The notes under the pieces are model-generated. The model was not told the DNA's origin, made no database searches, and was given only the letters and a program-made list of their open reading frames with translations. From positions 71,344-135,343 of the forward strand of contig NZ_JWID01000002.1 of the NCBI RefSeq assembly GCF_001466305.1: a stretch of DNA of 64,000 nucleotides, written 5' to 3'. A program made the translations under genes and the position numbers. Positions 32,525-43,178 of this stretch are shown here, piece after piece; position 1 is the stretch's first letter, and every line of letters begins with the position of its first letter. This DNA comes from Defluviitalea phaphyphila (GTDB lineage Bacteria; Bacillota; Clostridia; Lachnospirales; Defluviitaleaceae).

Positions 32525-33256
32525 ATGAGAATAAATATTATATTAAAAGGAAATGGTCCAATTAATTTACCTTTATCATATAATCAAACTATACAAGGAT
32601 TCCTTTATAAAAATCTTTCTGATCCTTATTTACGAGATTTTATACATAATAAAGGATTTAATAAAGAAAAAAGAATATTTAAATTTTTTTCTTTTTCTAG
32701 GTTGGAAGGAAATTTTAAAATAAATAATAATAAAAAGAGAATAATATTTACGGATAAGGTCACTTTAAAGGTTACCTCCATGTTTCCGCCTTTTATTGAA
32801 AACTTAGCTAATACTTTAATTAAAGAAGATAATCTTACATTAGGGACTAATATAGTTAAAGCCAAGGAAGTTTTTTTAGAAAAACCTTCAATAGAAGAAA
32901 ATATGAAAATTAAAACTTTATCTCCAATAGTGATTTATAGTACCTTGTCTAATGAAAATAAAAAATTTACTCATTATTATTCTCCACAAGAAAAACAATT
33001 TGCAACAATGATTAAAGAGAATCTTATAAGAAAAGCAAGTATATTTAATTCAAAATCTAAAAATATGGATTTTGAAATTAAAACTATAAGCTATAATAAA
33101 AATCCTAATATAATTCGTTATAAAAATTTTATCATAAAAGGATGGATGGGTACTTTTGAATTAAAAGGAGATATTGAACTTATAAAGATTGCTTATAACT
33201 ATGGTCTTGGGAGTAAAAATTCTCAAGGATTTGGAATGATCGAAAAAATTAGTTGA
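32525..33256 (+). CDS. cas6: CRISPR pre-crRNA endoribonuclease Cas6
   Basis: A 243-residue Cas6. The first ferredoxin-like fold starts with RINIILKG and SYNQTIQGFLYKNL. The C-terminal fold ends in the family's Gly-rich loop (YGLGSKNSQGFGMIEK), which binds RNA. Cas6 cuts CRISPR transcripts within the repeat to give crRNAs for the effector complex. It is separated from the cas10 operon by 471 bp that include a terminator and a new promoter, so it is a separate unit. No CRISPR array follows; a single repeat-like hairpin lies 32 bp after its stop. An AGAGAGG site precedes the ATG. Confidence 0.88.
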   Translation: MRINIILKGNGPINLPLSYNQTIQGFLYKNLSDPYLRDFIHNKGFNKEKRIFKFFSFSRLEGNFKINNNKKRIIFTDKVTLKVTSMFPPFIENLANTLIKEDNLTLGTNIVKAKEVFLEKPSIEENMKIKTLSPIVIYSTLSNENKKFTHYYSPQEKQFATMIKENLIRKASIFNSKSKNMDFEIKTISYNKNPNIIRYKNFIIKGWMGTFELKGDIELIKIAYNYGLGSKNSQGFGMIEKIS

Positions 33257-33288
33257 ATACAAAAAGTATATTTTTTATAAAATAAATA

Positions 33289-33328
33289 CTGTCGATCTGT
33301 AATAGTGTAAAGTATAGAAGGTCGACAG
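33289..33328. repeat. Solitary CRISPR-repeat-like 40-nt hairpin
   Basis: CTGTCGATCT at 33289-33298 pairs with AGGTCGACAG at 33319-33328, 10 bp with one G-U pair, around a 20-nt loop. Length, end palindromes and position just after cas6 fit a CRISPR repeat. No T-run follows on either strand, so a terminator is unlikely. Its GC-containing ends stand out against the AT-rich surroundings. It occurs once in the window. Confidence 0.5.
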
Positions 33329-33567
33329 AAAATAAAATTTATATATTTACTATAAAATAAGGATGAATAAAAAAAGATAATATTTATAATATAGAATATA
33401 AATTAAATAAAAATCAAAAATATTATACATTATGTTTATATGTTTTATAGATTACTTAGAAGGAATTGAAATATTATATTTATTTTTTATGGATATACAT
33501 TTGTGGCAGTTTATATAATACTTATAAAGAAATAAAAATACAAAATAATACATTTGTGCATAAGTAT

Positions 33568-33597
33568 AGAAATCTTATTTAAAAGATTTCTTTTTTT
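33568..33597 (+). terminator. Rho-independent terminator between cas6 and cas10
   Basis: AGAAATCTT at 33568-33576 and AAGATTTCT at 33583-33591, a 6-nt loop and seven T residues to 33597. Confidence 0.85.
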
Positions 33598-33640
33598 ATG
33601 TAAATTTTTATATTAATATCTTGTTTTTTAGAAGCAAAAA

Positions 33641-33669
33641 TTGAAAATATAAAAATTTTAAGATAATAT
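33641..33669 (+). promoter_or_regulatory. Sigma-A promoter of the cas10 operon
   Basis: TTGAAA at 33641-33646 and TAATAT at 33664-33669 with a 17-bp spacer, just after the terminator and about 58 bp before the cas10 start. Confidence 0.6.
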
Positions 33670-33727
33670 ATAATTGTGGGTTAAATTACAAATATATAAA
33701 ATAATTTATATTCAAAGGAGGGATATG

Positions 33728-35512
33728 ATGGAGAATATGATGTGTCTATATCCCAAAACTATGGATATAGCGGAATTTAATCAAGGATATAATGAAATAA
33801 AATCTCATATAAATAATGAAAAAATAGAGATTTTAGAAAAATATAAAGATTATCCTTATATATTTAAAGATAATAATGGGAAAAATGTCAAAACACAAGC
33901 TTCTATTTATGATGTAGTAAGGCTATATGTAGCTTTAGACTATATTATTTCAGGTAAAGAAAATAAAAAATTTGATAGAATAAAATCGTATAAGCAATTT
34001 TTTACAGAAGAAAAAACAAAATTAAAATCCTTTATTCATGCTTATTTAAAAGGAGAAAAAGAAGAAGATTTTAAAGAAATAGAAATAGATTTAGTAAAAG
34101 GTTCTATTTATAAAATAAAAAAGTATTTTTTGGAAAATGACAAAATTAAAGATATTCGTGGAGGAAGTGTATTAATAGATTATCTTAATATTCAAGTTAC
34201 AGACAATATAATACAGAATCATTTGATTGATGAATGTAAGATATATAGTGGGGGAGGTAATATAGTTTTAATTACTCCTAAAGATAAGGGGGAACATATT
34301 TGTGAAATTTTAGAAAATAGATATTTTGAGATAGCTTTAACCGTACAAAATGCCTTTGAATTTATTCCTACCAACATAAATACATTTTTATATGATTTTA
34401 ATGAAATTTCAAGAGAATTAACTATAAAACTAGAAGAACGAAAAAAATCTAAAATATATCAAATAAATCCAGATAGTGAAGTGGAAATAACTATAAATAA
34501 TAAAACAATTCATTTTTCTAAAGATGAAAAGGTACAATCTAATGAAATTTGTCCTTTATGTCAAGTAAGAGATGGGAAATATATTATAAATACTGCTGAA
34601 GGGGAAATAGTAGCTTGTCCTTCTTGTTTTAGAAAAAATAAAGCAGGAAAGGATAAATCAAGATTTATGCAAGAATATCAAAATATAACTGGTGGAGAAG
34701 TAAAAAAGTCAATTAAAGTTATAGAAGATTTAAAAGATAAAAATAACAATATTGCTGTAATTTATGGAGACGGGAATAATATGGGGAATGTTGTAAAGAA
34801 TATTGACACTCCATTTAAAATGGCATATTTTAGCCGAAAAACTGATGAAATAACTAAATCTTGTGTATATAATGCTATAAAAAAGAACATGCAGGGAAAA
34901 GCAAGGTTTGAGGTTATAGCTTTAGGAGGAGATGATATTTTTATTATAGTTCCAGCAGATTATAGCTTGGAAATATCAAGAGATATTGTTACAGAATTTG
35001 ATAAAAAATTTAATTATGAAATAACCATGTCTGTAGGTATTTGTATAGGAAAGTTTAATACTCCTATTAGAAATATGTTTTCTATTGCACAAAAAAAATT
35101 AAAATCAGCAAAGCAATATGTAAAATCTAAAAAACTTAATAAAGGATCAATTGATATAGAAGTGCTTAAGGGTGTAGGATTAATTGATTGGAATAATAAA
35201 AGAAAAAGCTTTTTTCCTGCCAGTGCAGAAGAAGTATCAAGATTTATTTCAATTTTGAAAGAAATGAAAAATAATTCTAAAATTAAGCCTTCTCAAATAT
35301 ACAAATTTAGATATGCAGCTGAAAAGATGGAAAAAGAAGAATTTAAGCTCTTTTATTTATATCAGCAATCCCGTATAGGCAATGAATATTCAAAATATAT
35401 GAAAAAATTGTATAACTTTAAAGATATCAATGAATTACTTGAAAATATAGATGATTTTCCTTGGAAAGATATTACGGATTTATTTGATTTAATAAGGGGG
35501 GATTTTGATTGA
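33728..35512 (+). CDS. cas10: Type III CRISPR large subunit Cas10 (GGDD kept, no HD domain seen)
   Basis: A 594-residue Cas10. Two palm domains are present: the first has YGDGNNMG around Asp348, the second the cyclase motif GGDD at residues 400-403, so cyclic oligoadenylate synthesis is expected on target RNA binding. A zinc site (Cys275/278 and Cys297/300) lies between the N-terminal part and the palm. The first 270 residues show no His-Asp pair, so the HD DNase domain appears absent, as reported for subtype III-D. The ATG at 33728 is 6 bases after a perfect GGAGG; a longer reading from 33674 has no ribosome site. It leads an operon with overlapping genes for RAMP proteins and two CARF-HEPN nucleases. 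Confidence 0.9.
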   Translation: MENMMCLYPKTMDIAEFNQGYNEIKSHINNEKIEILEKYKDYPYIFKDNNGKNVKTQASIYDVVRLYVALDYIISGKENKKFDRIKSYKQFFTEEKTKLKSFIHAYLKGEKEEDFKEIEIDLVKGSIYKIKKYFLENDKIKDIRGGSVLIDYLNIQVTDNIIQNHLIDECKIYSGGGNIVLITPKDKGEHICEILENRYFEIALTVQNAFEFIPTNINTFLYDFNEISRELTIKLEERKKSKIYQINPDSEVEITINNKTIHFSKDEKVQSNEICPLCQVRDGKYIINTAEGEIVACPSCFRKNKAGKDKSRFMQEYQNITGGEVKKSIKVIEDLKDKNNNIAVIYGDGNNMGNVVKNIDTPFKMAYFSRKTDEITKSCVYNAIKKNMQGKARFEVIALGGDDIFIIVPADYSLEISRDIVTEFDKKFNYEITMSVGICIGKFNTPIRNMFSIAQKKLKSAKQYVKSKKLNKGSIDIEVLKGVGLIDWNNKRKSFFPASAEEVSRFISILKEMKNNSKIKPSQIYKFRYAAEKMEKEEFKLFYLYQQSRIGNEYSKYMKKLYNFKDINELLENIDDFPWKDITDLFDLIRGDFD

Positions 35513-36045
35513 TTAAAAAGGAATATCAAGTTGATATAGAGTTTAATTCCCCATTCCATATATCATCTGGAGTAGTAGAGAATGGTTTTATAGATGAATA
35601 TATAATCAAGAAAGGTCAAAATCCATATATTCCCGGATCTACTGTAAAAGGAAAGGTAAGAAGTTATTTTAGAATGCTTTTGGAAAGTAAAATGAATAGA
35701 TTAGATGCAGAAAAAATAGAAGCTTTAATATTTGGAGGAGAAGGATATAAGCCTTCAAAAATATATTTTGAAGACTTTATTTCAAATAAGCCCAAAAATA
35801 CAGATATAAGATATGGAATAAGAGTTGATAGATATAAAAAGACTGCAAAAGATAAAGGATTATTTAATTATGAAATAGGAGAAAAAGGAATTTATACTGG
35901 AAAGGTGATTATTTATTTTGATGATATTACTATAAATTATAAAGAAGATTTAGAAATGGCATTTTTAATGGTTGATGCTATTGGAAAAGGTAAGAGTAAG
36001 GGACTTGGACATTGTAAAGTGTTTATTAGGGAGGTGACAAAATGA
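35509..36045 (+). CDS. Small Cas7-like RAMP protein of the type III complex
   Basis: A 178-residue RAMP with the Csm3/Cmr4 pattern: SPFHISSGVVENG near the start, YIPGSTVKGKVRSY and the late Gly-rich IGKGKSKGLGHCKVF. Asp29 (FIDEYI) lies where Csm3-type subunits hold the RNA-cleaving Asp. It is shorter than most Csm3 proteins and could be a backbone subunit next to Cas10. The start is a TTG that overlaps the cas10 stop by 4 bases, with an AAGGGGGG site before it. Confidence 0.8.
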   Translation: MIKKEYQVDIEFNSPFHISSGVVENGFIDEYIIKKGQNPYIPGSTVKGKVRSYFRMLLESKMNRLDAEKIEALIFGGEGYKPSKIYFEDFISNKPKNTDIRYGIRVDRYKKTAKDKGLFNYEIGEKGIYTGKVIIYFDDITINYKEDLEMAFLMVDAIGKGKSKGLGHCKVFIREVTK

Positions 36046-37217
36046 ATATTAGAATGAAATTTAATTCTCCCTTATTAATAGGAGGTAAAAAGTTAACATC
36101 TAATTTTATACAAGGAATCGATTATATTCCTGGAAATGTTGTTAGAGCGGCTTTTGCTAGGCATATATTAAATCATTGTGCCGTTAATAGAGAAAATTAT
36201 GTTGAAATTAATAGAGAAAAAAAATATAACTGGGTATATTTTAGAAATCTAGACGAATGCAAAAAGTGCATATATAAAAATATTTGTAAAAAATTTAGTG
36301 ATATAGAATTTTCATTTTTCTATCCAGAAGATACAGAAGTAGTTCCTCTTACAGCTATGAAGTGTAAAGAAAATGATGAACATGGATATATAGATTGTTT
36401 GGTGGACGAAAGAAAATGTAAAAAATGTGAACAAAGAGTAGAATTTTCCACAGGCTTAAGAAAAAATGATAAACCATATTCTGTTATATGGAATTACTTT
36501 ACTAGAACTTCCATAAATCCATACACTCAAACTTCTAAGGATGGTTCTTTATATACCTTAGTAGCAGTAGAAGGAACAACTAAGGAAAATGATAAAATTA
36601 ATAGCTATTTTAAAGGGAAGATTGAAGGAATAAATGAAGAAGAATTAAAATTATTTAATGATTTACGTATTGGGAAATATATATCTTCTGGTTTTGGACA
36701 AGTTGAATTAGAAATAATATATGAAAATAAAACAGAGGATCAGTCTTTAATAATTAACAAAATGAAAAAATTCGATAAAAAATTTAAAAATTTATTAAAA
36801 AAAGAAAGAAATTTTAAAAATAACAATTTAGATAATTTTTTAGATGATAATTTAAATTATTTTGCTATTTTATTTGTTTCTGATGTTAAATTACCTCATA
36901 TAGAATTAAATGGTTATAAAAAAACAGAAGAATATAAAAAAGAATGGCAAAATCTATTAGATATTAGCGAAGATTATGCCATACAAATGATTTATGGAGA
37001 AACTAATATATATAGGGGATATGATACTTCTAAAGGAACAAATGATAATCGAAAAAGTGCAGTATTACATTTACAAAAGGGCAGTGTTATTGTATTAAAG
37101 ACTAATAATTCCTTTGAACAGATTTATAAAGATTTCTCTAATAAAACCTTTGGGTTAGAAACAGAAAATGGATTTGGATGGATTAAAATTTATGATGGAG
37201 GGGTAGATAATGAATAA
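36042..37217 (+). CDS. csx10: Csx10-like (Cas5-group) RAMP protein
   Basis: A 391-residue RAMP beginning MNIRMKFNSPLLIGG, followed by YIPGNVVRAAFA, the pattern of Csx10/Cas5-group proteins that hold the crRNA 5' handle. Two Cys groups (73/76/82 and 108/119/126/129) could bind zinc. Later segments include SFFYPEDTEVVPLT, STGLRKNDKP, a central FKGKIEG and the Gly-rich YISSGFGQVELE. Csx10 is the marker of subtype III-D, consistent with the HD-less Cas10. It overlaps the preceding gene by ATGA. Csm4/Cmr3-like is the alternative name for the same role. Confidence 0.72.
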   Translation: MNIRMKFNSPLLIGGKKLTSNFIQGIDYIPGNVVRAAFARHILNHCAVNRENYVEINREKKYNWVYFRNLDECKKCIYKNICKKFSDIEFSFFYPEDTEVVPLTAMKCKENDEHGYIDCLVDERKCKKCEQRVEFSTGLRKNDKPYSVIWNYFTRTSINPYTQTSKDGSLYTLVAVEGTTKENDKINSYFKGKIEGINEEELKLFNDLRIGKYISSGFGQVELEIIYENKTEDQSLIINKMKKFDKKFKNLLKKERNFKNNNLDNFLDDNLNYFAILFVSDVKLPHIELNGYKKTEEYKKEWQNLLDISEDYAIQMIYGETNIYRGYDTSKGTNDNRKSAVLHLQKGSVIVLKTNNSFEQIYKDFSNKTFGLETENGFGWIKIYDGGVDNE

Positions 37218-37572
37218 AGAAATAAAAAATAAAATTTTAGAATACATAGATGAAATTAAAAGTAATAATATATTTTGGGAAAAAACAGGGAGTAAAAATT
37301 TAGGTAGTACAAATATTAGAAATATGGCTACAATAGCTTTAAATGCTGATTGTTATAAGGAATTGGAATTATATATAGCATATAAAATAGCAAGAGGAAA
37401 CGGATGGGAAAAAAATTTTAAAGATAATAAAAAATTTGGAGAAATTATTTTAGAATATATGGATAAAATAAAAAAACTTTCTGATACAGAAGAAGAAGCC
37501 TTATCAAATATCAGTAAATTTTTTGGCTATTTATACTGGTTTAGAAAAAGTATTGAGAAAGGAGGAAAATAA
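37210..37572 (+). CDS. Small helical protein, candidate Cas11 (Csm2/Cmr5-like) subunit
   Basis: A 120-residue, mostly helical, charged protein. Segments TNIRNMATIALNAD, YIAYKIARGNGWEKNF and SKFFGYLYWFRKSIE recall small type III subunits. Its size and place between a Csx10-like and a Csm3-like gene fit Cas11, which lines the inner filament of the complex. It overlaps its neighbours at both ends (8 bases with csx10, 1 with the next). Sequence similarity by eye is weak, and a Csx19-type accessory is the alternative. Confidence 0.6.
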   Translation: MNKEIKNKILEYIDEIKSNNIFWEKTGSKNLGSTNIRNMATIALNADCYKELELYIAYKIARGNGWEKNFKDNKKFGEIILEYMDKIKKLSDTEEEALSNISKFFGYLYWFRKSIEKGGK

Positions 37573-38333
37573 TGTTATTTAATAAATTTCAAAATAAGTA
37601 TATTATAAAGGGAACATTATATGCCTTAACTCCTCTTCATATTGGTTCAGGACAAGAAAATTTTGACCCTGTATTAGCAGATAATACTGTTATAAGAGAT
37701 CATAAAGGAATTCCTTATATTCCAGGAAGTTCATTAAAAGGGACTATTAGATCATATATTGAAAGGATTCTTTATAGTGGAGTATATAAAGGATTAAATT
37801 CCTGTTTAATTGTTAATGAACCTTGTGTTTCAGATGACGATATTAAAAAAATAAAAAAAGAGATAAAAGATAAAAACTTAAATGATAAAAAAGAAGCAGA
37901 AGAAATATACAGTAAGCTTTGTAGTGTTTGTAAATTATTTGGTTCTAATTATTTTGCTTCTAAGATACATATTAGAGATGCCAACTTAAAATCAGGAGAA
38001 AAGGTATATATTGATATGAGAGATGGAGTGGCTATAGATAGGGATACAGGAACAGAAAATAATAAATACGATTTTGAGTGTGTAAGTTCAGGAAGTAAAT
38101 TTGATTTTTATATGACCGTTGATAACATTGAAGATGAACTTTTAGAAATATTAAAGTTAATTATAAGCATATTAAAAAATGGAGATTTTCGCATAGGAGG
38201 AAAGACTTCTGCAGGATTAGGAAGTATCCAATTACAAGAAGTAAAAATTTATAAAATTACTATGGATAATCTAAAAACTTATTTAGAAAAAGGATTAGAA
38301 GCTTTAGAAGAAATGGAGTGGGAAAATGTTTAA
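37572..38333 (+). CDS. Csm3-like Cas7 RAMP protein (first)
   Basis: A 253-residue Cas7-group RAMP very like Csm3: LTPLHIGSGQENFDP, ADNTVIRDHKGIPYIPGSS then LKGTIRSYIE, CSVCKLFG, and the late GKTSAGLGSIQL. Asp37 in the ADN segment corresponds to the catalytic Asp of Csm3 that cuts target RNA at 6-nt steps. Two Cys in CSVC may join a zinc site. It overlaps the small-subunit gene by one base and the next RAMP by 8. It probably forms part of the helical backbone that measures the guide. Confidence 0.87.
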   Translation: MLFNKFQNKYIIKGTLYALTPLHIGSGQENFDPVLADNTVIRDHKGIPYIPGSSLKGTIRSYIERILYSGVYKGLNSCLIVNEPCVSDDDIKKIKKEIKDKNLNDKKEAEEIYSKLCSVCKLFGSNYFASKIHIRDANLKSGEKVYIDMRDGVAIDRDTGTENNKYDFECVSSGSKFDFYMTVDNIEDELLEILKLIISILKNGDFRIGGKTSAGLGSIQLQEVKIYKITMDNLKTYLEKGLEALEEMEWENV

Positions 38334-39117
38334 AAAATTACATAATGAAGCCTTTATTTCATATAAATTAAAAACAGTTAGTCCACTTTATATTGGAAGT
38401 CATAATGAAGATAGTTTAAATCCTAATGCAGTGGATAATTCATTTTTAACTGTATATCGTGATGGTAACCCTGTTCCTGTTTTACCTGGGACAAGTTTAA
38501 AGGGAGTTTTACGTTCTAATAGCGAAAAAATTTTAGAGGGTAGTTGCGACCCTTTAAGAAATAATTGTGGGAAAAAAGTAGATAGGAAAAAAGATGATGG
38601 AACGGCAAGGTATAAAAAAAGTTGCCCAGTATGCAAACTATTTGGTTCAACTGCATTAAAAAGTAGAATTCTTTTTGGAGATGCTTATCCTGAAGGAGAA
38701 TATAAAATAGGGGCAAGAAAATCTGTGGCTATTGATAGAATTACTGGAGCTGCAAAAGGAAGTGCTTTATTCGATTTTGAATATGTAGAAGATGCTTTAT
38801 TTAAAGGAAATATACAGATTCAAAATTTTTTTAAATGGCATATAAAATTACTAATAGATTTATTTGAAAGGATTAATGAGGGTTATATTGTTTTTGGAGG
38901 TTTTACTTCTAAGGGATTTGGAAGAATGAAATTAGAAGAATTTAACATTGTATTAAGATACTATGATAAATCAAAATGTAGTAATGAATATATAGATAAA
39001 GGATTTTACATGGAGAAAAAAATAGAAACATTTGAAGATATAAAGAATTTATTACAGAATATATTATTAACTAAAAATGAAACAGATAGGTGTGAATACA
39101 ATGAAAAAGCCATATAG
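38326..39117 (+). CDS. Csm3-like Cas7 RAMP protein (second)
   Basis: A 263-residue paralogue of the preceding RAMP: SPLYIGSHNEDSLNP, AVDNSFLTVYRDG, VLPGTSLKGVLRS, CPVCKLFGS and the Gly-rich GGFTSKGFGRMKLEEF. Asp37 is again at the place of the RNA-cleaving residue, and AIDRITGAAK matches AIDRDTGTEN of its neighbour. III-D complexes often carry several different Cas7 subunits in place of one repeated subunit. It overlaps the next gene by 17 bases. Confidence 0.87.
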   Translation: MFKKLHNEAFISYKLKTVSPLYIGSHNEDSLNPNAVDNSFLTVYRDGNPVPVLPGTSLKGVLRSNSEKILEGSCDPLRNNCGKKVDRKKDDGTARYKKSCPVCKLFGSTALKSRILFGDAYPEGEYKIGARKSVAIDRITGAAKGSALFDFEYVEDALFKGNIQIQNFFKWHIKLLIDLFERINEGYIVFGGFTSKGFGRMKLEEFNIVLRYYDKSKCSNEYIDKGFYMEKKIETFEDIKNLLQNILLTKNETDRCEYNEKAI

Positions 39118-39958
39118 TTTTATACCTTTTTTACCTATGAAAGAATATAAGAAAACTGGGAACGAAGAAGGGAAAATTGATATAAAATTAGAAGTCTTAA
39201 CACCAGTACATATTTCATCGGGACATTTACAAGAACATAATAATTTATTATATAAACAATTTGTTAAATTCAATAATAGACCTATTATTCCTGGTACTAG
39301 TTTAAAAGGATGTATTCGTTCCATTGCAGAGGCAATATCTTATAGTTGTTACCCTAAATCAAAAAATGTAGATTATAAAAAATTTTCTAAAAACAAACTA
39401 GATGAAAGTAATAACTGTATTATATGCAATATGTTTGGGGCTATGGGAAAGAAAAGCAAAATTAGATTTGAAGATTTACAGCTTAGAGAAGAAGATATAA
39501 AAAATAAAATGATTATATTAAATATTCCACAATTTTATCCTCCTAGACCTGAAAATAATTTATATTTAGAAAATAATAAGTATAAAGGTTATAAATTTTA
39601 TCATCATGGGGATAAAAAAATTTTAGAAAAAGGGAAATTTCCTTATGAATTTGTAAATATAGGAGGAATATTTGAAGGAAGTATAAGATTTGAAAATATG
39701 ACAGAGGAACAAGTTAATTTACTTTGTTTTTCTTTAGGACTTAATGGAAGAATTCAGCCTAAAATCGGATATGGAAAACCTGCTTATTATGGAAGTGTTA
39801 AAATAACTACTAATGAACAAAAATGGATAGAAAAAGCAAATAAATATGAAAATCAATCTTCGGAAGAAGTTAAAGGAAATATTAAAAAGTTAATAAATAT
39901 ATTAAATTATGATAGATCCAAAAGAAATATAAGTGAATGGGAAAATGGCATGTATTAG
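39101..39958 (+). CDS. Csm5-like RAMP protein without the catalytic Asp
   Basis: A 285-residue RAMP: LTPVHISSGHLQEHNN, IIPGTSLKGCIRSIAE, CIICNMFG and GLNGRIQPKIGYGKPAYYG. The segment equal to (A/V)DN in the two preceding RAMPs reads NNLLYKQF, so the cleaving Asp is absent. It may cap the complex (Csm5/Cmr6 role). The ATG at 39101 has an AGGTGTG site 8-9 bases before; the earlier ATG at 39077 lies deeper in the upstream gene without one. Confidence 0.78.
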   Translation: MKKPYSFIPFLPMKEYKKTGNEEGKIDIKLEVLTPVHISSGHLQEHNNLLYKQFVKFNNRPIIPGTSLKGCIRSIAEAISYSCYPKSKNVDYKKFSKNKLDESNNCIICNMFGAMGKKSKIRFEDLQLREEDIKNKMIILNIPQFYPPRPENNLYLENNKYKGYKFYHHGDKKILEKGKFPYEFVNIGGIFEGSIRFENMTEEQVNLLCFSLGLNGRIQPKIGYGKPAYYGSVKITTNEQKWIEKANKYENQSSEEVKGNIKKLINILNYDRSKRNISEWENGMY

Positions 39959-39969
39959 GAGAGATGTTT

Positions 39970-40479
39970 ATGGAAAACAAAGGACTACTTTTAGAAGCAT
40001 CAGAAAGAGCTGCAGAATTTATTAATAAAAATCACTATTCAAATTTTATCTCAAAAATTTTAGAATTATTACACGTAGCAAAATATTCTAGTGATGATGA
40101 ATATGAACAAAAACAAAAATTTTTTAGATTATTATATCAACTTAAAAATTCAGCTAAAATAGAAATTATAGGTGGAGGAAAAGAATTAAAAAATGGATTT
40201 AAAGAATTTGTAGATAAATATATTAAATTAAAGAAAAAAGAAGGATTTATTTTAGAAAATGAAGATTTTAAAGATTGTACTTTAGAAGAAATAGAATATA
40301 TTTTAGGATGGACAAGAAGATTAATTAAGGAAGATAAGAATAAAAATACAAAAAATAAAAACTTTAACAAAAAAGTTAAATATAAAAGAAATTATAGAGG
40401 TAGTAAAAATATGTCTAATAATAGTATTGGTAGTTCAGTAATGCAAAATGCATTTAAAGGGTTGGATATTAAATTTTAA
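39970..40479 (+). CDS. Small basic helical protein of the CRISPR operon
   Basis: A 169-residue protein I do not recognise with certainty. Residues 1-110 look helical (SNFISKILELLHVAKY, KFFRLLYQLKNSAK, FKEFVDKYIKLKKKEG), resembling Csm2-type small subunits. Residues 120-150 are a Lys/Asn/Arg-rich tail that could bind nucleic acid. The ATG at 39970 has an AGGAGAG site; the longer frame overlaps the RAMP stop. It is one of two Cas11 candidates, or a subtype-specific accessory. Confidence 0.6.
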   Translation: MENKGLLLEASERAAEFINKNHYSNFISKILELLHVAKYSSDDEYEQKQKFFRLLYQLKNSAKIEIIGGGKELKNGFKEFVDKYIKLKKKEGFILENEDFKDCTLEEIEYILGWTRRLIKEDKNKNTKNKNFNKKVKYKRNYRGSKNMSNNSIGSSVMQNAFKGLDIKF

Positions 40480-40506
40480 GAAGTATTTTTAAAGGAGCGA
40501 GTAACT

Positions 40507-41661
40507 TTGGAAAAAGTTTTAATATCTGTTATAGGGAAAAATACATATCCGGAAACTGAATATATTTTTAAAGGAAAAAGCATAAGAAGTAATTTAGTAA
40601 TGGATGTCTTGTACAATGAAATTAAACTGGATCAAATTTATGTTTTAGGAACAGAAACATCTTTGTGGGAAAATATAGATAAGACAAATATTCCTTATAA
40701 AAAGATAATTATTCCTTATGGCGAACAAAATGAAGATTATATTAAAATTTTTAAAACTATATCTACAATAGAAGTAAAAGATAAAGAAATATATATAGAT
40801 GTAACCCATGGATTTCGTTCCATTCCTTTTTATTTATTTTCAGCTCTTAATTATTTTAGTATTATACAAAATGCAAAAATTAAAGGATGTTACTATGGGA
40901 TGTATCGTGGAGAAGGAGAACAAGCACCCATAGTAGATATGCAATCATTAATGGAATTACAAAAGTGGATTGGGGCTTATCATGTTTTTAATTCCAGTGG
41001 AATTTCAACTGAAATTGCTGATCTTTTAGATGAAAAACAAAATGATTTTTATTTAAATAAAGAAGTAGATAAAAGTAAAGGCCCTAAAAATTTAAAAAAA
41101 GTTTCTAAAGCATTAAAAGATTTATCTTATGCTATAGGATTAAATTATACAAAAGAAGTAAAAGATACTGCACATATATTACTTGATTTATTGCAAGATA
41201 AATCTGTTGAAGAGGAAATAGAATATTTTGTAAAACAATTTTCAATAATTGTCCCTATGCTTAAAGAAGATTTGAAAAATATTGTGGAACATGAATATCA
41301 CTGGCAAATACAATTATTTTTAGCAGAATTATATTATCGTTATAACAGATATACAAATTGCCTTACGACTCTTAGAGAGTTAATTATTACATATTTAATA
41401 GAAATGGTAGAAAATAAACCGGAATATATTTATAACCGTAAATATAGAGAAAGTATATCCAATAAATTGCATGAAAAAGACCATAAGAATGAAGATATAA
41501 AAAAAATAAAACAATTATATAAAGATATTTCAGATATGAGAAATGTCTCAGGACATGGAGGAATGAGGGAAGAAGGACGAATGCGCTTGGGTGCTGCAAA
41601 AGAAAAAATTAAAGATAAGATTGATTTATTAAAGTCAATTTTATTAAAAATTAGTAGGTAG
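40507..41661 (+). CDS. csx1: CARF-HEPN ribonuclease, Csx1/TM1812 family
   Basis: A 384-residue protein. The N-terminal CARF domain has KVLISVIGKN, YVLGTETS and the signature DVTHGFRSIPF from Asp98, typical of the TM1812 branch. The C-terminal HEPN domain has the RNase motif R-x4-H (Arg345 to His350, RNVSGH). It should be a dimer switched on by the cyclic oligoadenylate made by Cas10, then cutting RNA without much sequence preference. The start is a TTG with an AAAGGAGCG site, 27 bp after the small protein. It is followed by a second, different CARF-HEPN nuclease. Confidence 0.88.
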   Translation: MEKVLISVIGKNTYPETEYIFKGKSIRSNLVMDVLYNEIKLDQIYVLGTETSLWENIDKTNIPYKKIIIPYGEQNEDYIKIFKTISTIEVKDKEIYIDVTHGFRSIPFYLFSALNYFSIIQNAKIKGCYYGMYRGEGEQAPIVDMQSLMELQKWIGAYHVFNSSGISTEIADLLDEKQNDFYLNKEVDKSKGPKNLKKVSKALKDLSYAIGLNYTKEVKDTAHILLDLLQDKSVEEEIEYFVKQFSIIVPMLKEDLKNIVEHEYHWQIQLFLAELYYRYNRYTNCLTTLRELIITYLIEMVENKPEYIYNRKYRESISNKLHEKDHKNEDIKKIKQLYKDISDMRNVSGHGGMREEGRMRLGAAKEKIKDKIDLLKSILLKISR

Positions 41662-41678
41662 ATAATCGGAGGATTATA

Positions 41679-43178
41679 ATGAATACAAGAGAAATACAGC
41701 AAAAAACATCTATCTGGATGTCTATGGAAAGAGCTACAAAAGAACAAAGGGATAGAGCGGAAAAATATTATGAAAAAGAATTAATGCCTTTAATTATAGA
41801 AAGCTTTATTAACAGGGGAAAGAATATTATTAATAAACCAGAATATATGATTTTATCTGTAGGAACTTCCTATGAACCTTTGGTACTTTCTTTAAAATTA
41901 TTAAATCCTAACAAAGTATTATTTTTATATACTGAAAAAACAGAAGAAAAAATCGATAAAATATTGGAATTTGTAAATTTAAAAGCAAGCCAATTTAATA
42001 AAGAAAAAGTTGAAGAAACAAATTCTTTAATAATATATCAAAAAATTAAAAAAGTTTATTTAGAATGGGGAAAGCCTGAAAAAATATATGTTGATTTTAC
42101 AGGAGGAACAAAGGCCATGTCAGCAGCTACTGCCATGGCCGGAGCTATGTTAGGAGCTCAATTAATTTATATAGGAAATAAGGAATATTTAAAGGATTTT
42201 AGAAAACCATATCCTGGCACAGAATTTTTAGAAAAAGTACAAAATCCTTACAATGTTTTTGGAGATATAGAAGAGGAAAGAGCTAATGATTTATTAAATC
42301 AACATGATTATGTAGGAGCAAGAAAGATATTTGAATCTTTAGTTGATAAAGTGCCAGATCCTAATAAAAAAGAGTATTTTTATGTACTATATTTAATTAC
42401 TTCAGCATATGAATACTGGGATTCCTTAGAGTTTAATAAAGCTTTATTAAATATGAATAAGGCAATAGAAGAAATAGAAAAATATTCTTTATTAAATTCT
42501 AAGTTTATAATGTTAGATAAATTAGAATTATTAAGAAAACAAAGTGAATTTTTAGAGATAATGACTAATAATACTAAAAAAATTAGGAAAAATAATCCTA
42601 TGGCAATACTTTTGAAAATAGAAGAAATACTTCCTCTTATGTTTACAGTATATCATAATGCTAAAAGAAGAAGTGAACAGGAAAAATATGATATGGCATC
42701 TTTATTATTATATAGACTTTTAGAGATGATAATGCAAAGAAGATTAGTTACTTATGAAATAGATGTTTCAAGACCCATATATAATAAGATTTTTAAAAAT
42801 AGAAATGAGTTAAATATTTTTAAAAATAAAGTAATTGAATATAGAAAAAAAGTTTATGGGAAAAATATAAACATAAATCTTCCTAATAATATTACTTTAA
42901 TGGAAGGATATATTCAGTTAGCAGCTCTTAAAGATAAATTAATCTATGAAACTGATAAAATTAAATTTTTAAAAAGTATTTTTAACAAAATAAAAATACG
43001 CAATTATAATATATTTGCTCATGGATTTTACTCTTTAACTCAAGAAGAATATAAGGATTTTGAGAATTTTGTGCTAAATATTTTTGAACATTTTTGTAAA
43101 ATAGAAGGAGTCGATAAGAAGAAATATGAATATTATATGAAATTTATTCATCCAAAAGAATCAAAATATTATCAGTAG
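41679..43178 (+). CDS. CARF-HEPN ribonuclease, Csm6-like (TIGR02710 type)
   Basis: A 499-residue protein. CARF elements are YMILSVGTSYEPLVL and VDFTGGTKAMSAA (from Val138). A helical, TPR-like middle (about residues 190-400) follows. The C-terminal HEPN motif is R-x6-H (Arg441 to His448, RNYNIFAH). It is a second cyclic-oligoadenylate-activated RNase whose CARF pocket and catalytic spacing differ from the preceding one, so the two may answer to different ring sizes. The N-terminal 50 residues are an extra helical segment. It is the last gene of the operon, 17 bp after csx1. No ring nuclease gene is seen in the window. Confidence 0.87.
   Translation: MNTREIQQKTSIWMSMERATKEQRDRAEKYYEKELMPLIIESFINRGKNIINKPEYMILSVGTSYEPLVLSLKLLNPNKVLFLYTEKTEEKIDKILEFVNLKASQFNKEKVEETNSLIIYQKIKKVYLEWGKPEKIYVDFTGGTKAMSAATAMAGAMLGAQLIYIGNKEYLKDFRKPYPGTEFLEKVQNPYNVFGDIEEERANDLLNQHDYVGARKIFESLVDKVPDPNKKEYFYVLYLITSAYEYWDSLEFNKALLNMNKAIEEIEKYSLLNSKFIMLDKLELLRKQSEFLEIMTNNTKKIRKNNPMAILLKIEEILPLMFTVYHNAKRRSEQEKYDMASLLLYRLLEMIMQRRLVTYEIDVSRPIYNKIFKNRNELNIFKNKVIEYRKKVYGKNININLPNNITLMEGYIQLAALKDKLIYETDKIKFLKSIFNKIKIRNYNIFAHGFYSLTQEEYKDFENFVLNIFEHFCKIEGVDKKKYEYYMKFIHPKESKYYQ

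Follow-up and report, generated by a model that had tools for sequence, protein, structure and literature searches.

A leader inverted repeat before a decayed CRISPR array in Defluviitalea phaphyphila, a candidate duplex-DNA docking site for spacer acquisition

A 40-nt palindrome that stands alone behind a cas6 gene of Defluviitalea phaphyphila is almost certainly an inverted repeat of the leaders of arrays that serve type I-B and type III CRISPR–Cas systems. The array behind it has decayed to repeat, spacer and repeat. The reading we prefer, and hold to be reasonably probable, is a leader inverted repeat before a decayed array that would serve as a duplex-DNA docking site for spacer acquisition; a role in acquisition (adaptation), taken by itself and judged by analogy, could equally well hold or fail.

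In the window (the whole stretch of 64,000 nucleotides that was analysed), the palindrome, CTGTCGATCTGTAATAGTGTAAAGTATAGAAGGTCGACAG, lies at 33289-33328 on the + strand, where both its sequence and a covariance model identify it, and starts exactly 32 bp past the stop of cas6 at 33256. The cas6 gene (32525-33256, + strand, 243 aa) is supported by Pfam (Cas_Cas6_C, 1.3e-37) and PADLOC (Cas6b, 4.9e-75). The 5' arm CTGTCGATCT (33289-33298) and the 3' arm AGGTCGACAG (33319-33328), both on the + strand and seen in sequence and fold, pair over 10 bp around the asymmetric centre GTAATAGTGTAAAGTATAGA (33299-33318, + strand), which holds the family motif RTAGTGYAAA. The predicted fold has an energy of -16.3 kcal/mol (z -5.0), and none of 200 shuffles was equally stable. 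The tail AAAATAAAATTT is without a T-tract and there is no terminator-like site in 32900-33800 of the window, so an intrinsic terminator was rejected as an explanation: no U run follows the stem. Coordinates, arms, fold and terminator scan thus all agree with the sequence-only reading, which had described a 40-nt palindrome 32 bp after cas6 without terminator features.

The remainder of the leader (33327-33442, + strand) extends for 116 nt from the family core, a spacing class that functional leaders share; the core itself (33291-33326) is two bases short of the 38-nt norm. Then come a decayed repeat, TTTTATAGATTACTTAGAAGGAATTGAAAT (33443-33472, 26/30 identity to GTTTATAGATTACCTATAAGGAATTGAAAC, profile score 20.9), a relict spacer of 36 nt (33473-33508) with no significant phage match, and a second decayed repeat, GTTTATATAATACTTATAAAGAAATAAAAA (33509-33538, 24/30 identity to GTTTATAGAATACCTATAAGGAATTGAAAC, profile score 0.4), all on the + strand. 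The repeats begin 116 and 182 nt downstream of the element, i.e. exactly 66 nt apart, which is the usual array period. A profile of functional first repeats was run over the + strand of the window: the two scores are those of its best and second-best sites (60 simulated windows searched with the same profile gave a maximum of 16.8 and a mean of 0.3), and only two + strand 30-mers of the window, with 26 and 24 identities, reach at least 24/30 identity to known repeats. Because of these repeat matches, the 66-nt period and a 116-nt gap within the spacing range of the family, we read the stretch as element, leader, repeat, spacer and repeat, all decayed; repeat-like units stand at the array period behind a leader. 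No TTGACA/TATAAT promoter is recognisable at the usual place in this leader (the scan did no better than on shuffles), and the promoter has probably decayed. The sequence-only reading, which missed the two decayed repeats, had taken the palindrome for a possible last repeat marking the leader side of a collapsed array; the leader side is borne out by the repeats from 116 nt downstream, whereas the last repeat is not, as relatives of the palindrome precede unrelated repeats.

Further downstream lies a type III-D effector operon (33674-43178, + strand; gene calls, Pfam and PADLOC) with cas10, RAMP genes, a csx10-like cas5, a csm2-like subunit and two CARF-HEPN genes; cas1 and cas2 are absent from it. 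The genome has three type III effector operons (this one, L014 11455-17038 and L023 4385-12916), whose types are III-D, III-A and a third that is Cmr-like, together with four Cas6-like genes and a single cas1.

The 36-nt inner form of the palindrome occurs once in the 2.54-Mb genome at up to three mismatches, and no array built from its sequence is found in the window or in the genome. A covariance model (R1), which replaced a loose pattern used beforehand, scores the window element at 41.8 bits (E 1.1e-8, whole genome) and finds 14 family members in the genome, all dispersed. For example, one lies behind the cas6 gene of another locus, of type III-A, on contig 75, and others are on contigs 5, 9 and 37. 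Behind most copies, at ~125 nt, comes an array whose repeat is unrelated, e.g. GTTTCTAGCCTACCTATAAGGAATTGAAAC; at least four of the 14 precede worn-out or single repeats. Rfam has no family above its gathering score at the element (chance-level matches only), and the arrays themselves match CRISPR-DR2. The genome's sole cas1 belongs to a type I-B locus (contig 13) whose leader has an inverted, degenerate copy ~60 nt before the first repeat and no other; the copies linked to type III would therefore need that Cas1 in trans, a point against a docking role in acquisition.

In three more collapsed arrays of the genome (L196 1653-1706, L162 2295-2348 and L197 127-181) the element has behind it one repeat, which is worn or has been partly deleted. 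On contig 5 a good copy (L023 17744-17780) is flanked by two sugar-metabolism genes that converge on it; it has no repeat in its vicinity and is perhaps a leader whose array was deleted. In a relative (G001, L025 7378-7475), an apparent broken cas6 tail upstream of a second element suggests duplication of the cas6-leader-array unit. Some early matches of the loose pattern in other families of the order (L026-L033, L036, L037 and L039) were set aside as chance or unrelated palindromes. Another genus (L028, L029, L036, L039) has near-identical dispersed palindromes, GTCGATTGCGGGAGTGCAAAGCACGCAGCAATCGAC, with three copies in one genome, which are apparently unrelated to CRISPR.

The family, with a 38-nt consensus of GTCGACCTCCAGTAGTGCAAAAACCCCTGGGGATCGAC, is dispersed and found in CRISPR leaders. 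Scanning one genome per species for GTCGAYCN{3,5}RTAGTGYAAAN{8,16}TCGAC gave at least 116 stretches. Among the matches listed, almost all are exactly 38 nt long, and they come from Clostridia (Clostridium, Tissierellia), Listeria, Bacillales, Synergistetes, Atribacteria and Chloroflexota; single MAG records labelled Ignavibacteria, Bacteroidales, Saprospiraceae and Sebaldella also have the element, and it precedes an array on one contig of a viral collection. Small Geobacillus plasmids (L160 3997-4400 and L161 3997-4400) have CRISPR arrays with the element in the leader, and no annotated cas gene in the 8-kb stretches analysed.

98 of the matches listed have enough flanking DNA to be evaluated. 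Downstream of 86 of these, and on their strand, an array begins at a distance of 95-170 nt, which holds for 0.8% of sites drawn at random from these loci; four more are inverted and have an array within 90 nt, and of the eight left over at least four (L060, L087, L104, L154) show a single or short array by inspection. Where an upstream neighbour within 250 nt was recognised, it was cas2 (20 times), cas6 (four times) or cas1 (twice), in every case on the strand of the element; other copies follow unrelated genes. The arrays behind the element have mutually unrelated repeats. The element is thus found upstream of the first repeat, in a consistent orientation, and conserved over unrelated repeats and species. 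By the covariance model it is present in 42 of 391 genomes of the class, and Cas6 was found in 35 of these 42 vs 41 of the other 349 (p 6e-22).

Two symmetric half-sites with a consensus of nnnnGTCGAYCYCC flank an asymmetric centre, RTAGTGYAAAAA. Because the search pattern prescribes GTCGA, RTAGTGYAAA and TCGAC, these are bound to be invariant in the scan set; it does not prescribe the two conserved A after RTAGTGYAAA (109 and 104 of the 115 listed) or the conserved G at positions 29, 30 and 32. The outer arms covary (TGTC/GACA, AGTC/GACT, ATCT/AGAT and GTTT/AAAC, with 20-31 double changes per pair; covariation 0.254 vs 0.154 +- 0.007 in shuffles), and since they change together the inverted repeat is maintained.

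We infer a protein bound at the element. On the preferred reading, a docking site for spacer acquisition, the element would act as double-stranded DNA, with the two half-sites flanking a centre that would set direction. A putative protein would bind it 100-150 bp upstream of the leader-repeat junction, the leader would bend, and the bound protein could help the Cas1-Cas2(-Cas4) integrase to dock at the first repeat, where new spacers would thereby enter. Distances between element and array cluster near 100, 111, 124, 136 and 148 nt, with a period of 12.0 nt (p ~0.001 over 22 leader clusters) that is exploratory, as it comes from a scan over periods with a jitter control; helical phasing of 10.5 bp had p 0.2 over these 22 clusters and was not significant (p 0.1-0.2) in the two coarser leader clusterings. 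That the period fits 12 nt and not the DNA helix speaks against the docking reading.

The main rival, which we consider unlikely, is that a dimeric transcription factor uses the element as its operator and controls the array promoter rather than acquisition. As a DNA palindrome that lies ahead of a sigma-70 promoter, the element would suit this: 42 of 95 leaders have a recognisable promoter, TTGACA-16/18-TATAAT, between element and array. Moreover, of 12 leaders whose arrays have GTAAAT-type repeats (from Listeria among others), seven (L098, L120, L147, L070, L077, L083 and L157) carry the arm word TCGACAG once more, roughly 55 nt ahead of the first repeat, and an eighth (L150) carries TCGACAA there, a position that holds although total leader length varies and that overlaps the -35 box in Listeria; a putative DeoR/WYL-like regulator gene, assigned by eye, adjoins cas6 in L013. 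However, an extra half-site is found in only one of 74 leaders of the main repeat class, probably by chance, and the conserved centre is long and asymmetric. The promoter also mostly keeps its place relative to the repeat (in most cases the -10 box ends 13-15 nt before it), whereas its start varies from ~59 to 105 nt downstream of the element.

It is still less probable that the element is an RNA hairpin in the cas transcript, i.e. a Cas6 target, an antiterminator, an mRNA-stabilising end or a terminator. The strong fold and the covarying stem would fit, as would the frequent same-strand position just behind cas2 or cas6, and the T-rich stretches that follow some clostridial copies. But wobble is not favoured (76 G-T vs 95 A-C cells), the inner pairs 8-31 (Fisher p 1.0) and 6-33 (p 0.26) are uncoupled, and inverted copies sit 59-83 nt from arrays; the element goes with arrays, even those distant from cas genes, and the window copy has neither a T-tract nor an Rfam match. 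The lack of wobble excess, the uncoupled inner pairs, the inversion and the promoter downstream favour two half-sites read on duplex DNA, and on these points the element does not behave as a structured cis-regulatory RNA. The same observations, with copies after cas2 and other genes, speak against a hairpin bound or cut by Cas6 in its own transcript, which the sequence-only reading had put forward. A last rival would make the palindrome a relic of an array whose own repeats measured 36-40 nt and were targets of the adjoining Cas6; it fits the repeat-like size and stem beside cas6 and can practically be discarded: the genome and relatives yielded family members that stand singly, with no inspected copy arrayed, the copies precede arrays with different repeats, and true decayed repeats of the usual class sit downstream.

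Neither the core string AGTAGTGCAAAAA nor a description of the element family was found in the literature searched. We tentatively regard the docking site as an uncatalogued DNA element of type I-B and III acquisition, spread over several phyla and repeat families, usable in either orientation, at preferred distances that differ by steps of ~12 bp, and with a predicted protein partner. Type I-B and III systems without a recognised IHF-like factor must still find the leader end of an array, and a conserved, sequence-defined leader site is a direct bait for finding the factor; the element is also a genomic marker for collapsed arrays and for the direction in which arrays run. Phased upstream leader motifs that are subtype-specific, and whose phase matters for adaptation, were reportedly described by Santiago-Frangos et al. 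(Curr Biol, 2021); as upstream leader motifs they would resemble the element.

Leader inverted repeats as such are already known, in type I-F and in the type I-B system of Clostridioides difficile. In C. difficile 630 two inverted-repeat motifs are found upstream of every array (Maikova et al. 2021, PMC8406132), likewise conserved and in a clostridium; their likeness to the element is by description, and in the part consulted that paper does not mention a wider family or a core motif, or analyse spacing or orientation. In type I-F, a leader inverted repeat is contacted by Cas2 of Cas1-2/3 (PMC12259127): like the element, it is an inverted repeat that precedes the first repeat within the leader and acts at the DNA level, but it belongs to another CRISPR type, is IHF-assisted and has its binding shown by structure, whereas the element is known from sequence. 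In the type I-A system of Sulfolobus islandicus, Csa3a binds a distal leader motif (-143 to -94) that is needed for efficient adaptation (PMC9456107); this motif lies at a similar distance upstream of the first repeat, although the system is archaeal and different and its binding factor is known. It is because of the analogy with the type I-F inverted repeat and this distal motif that we propose for the element a docking role in acquisition on a folded leader.
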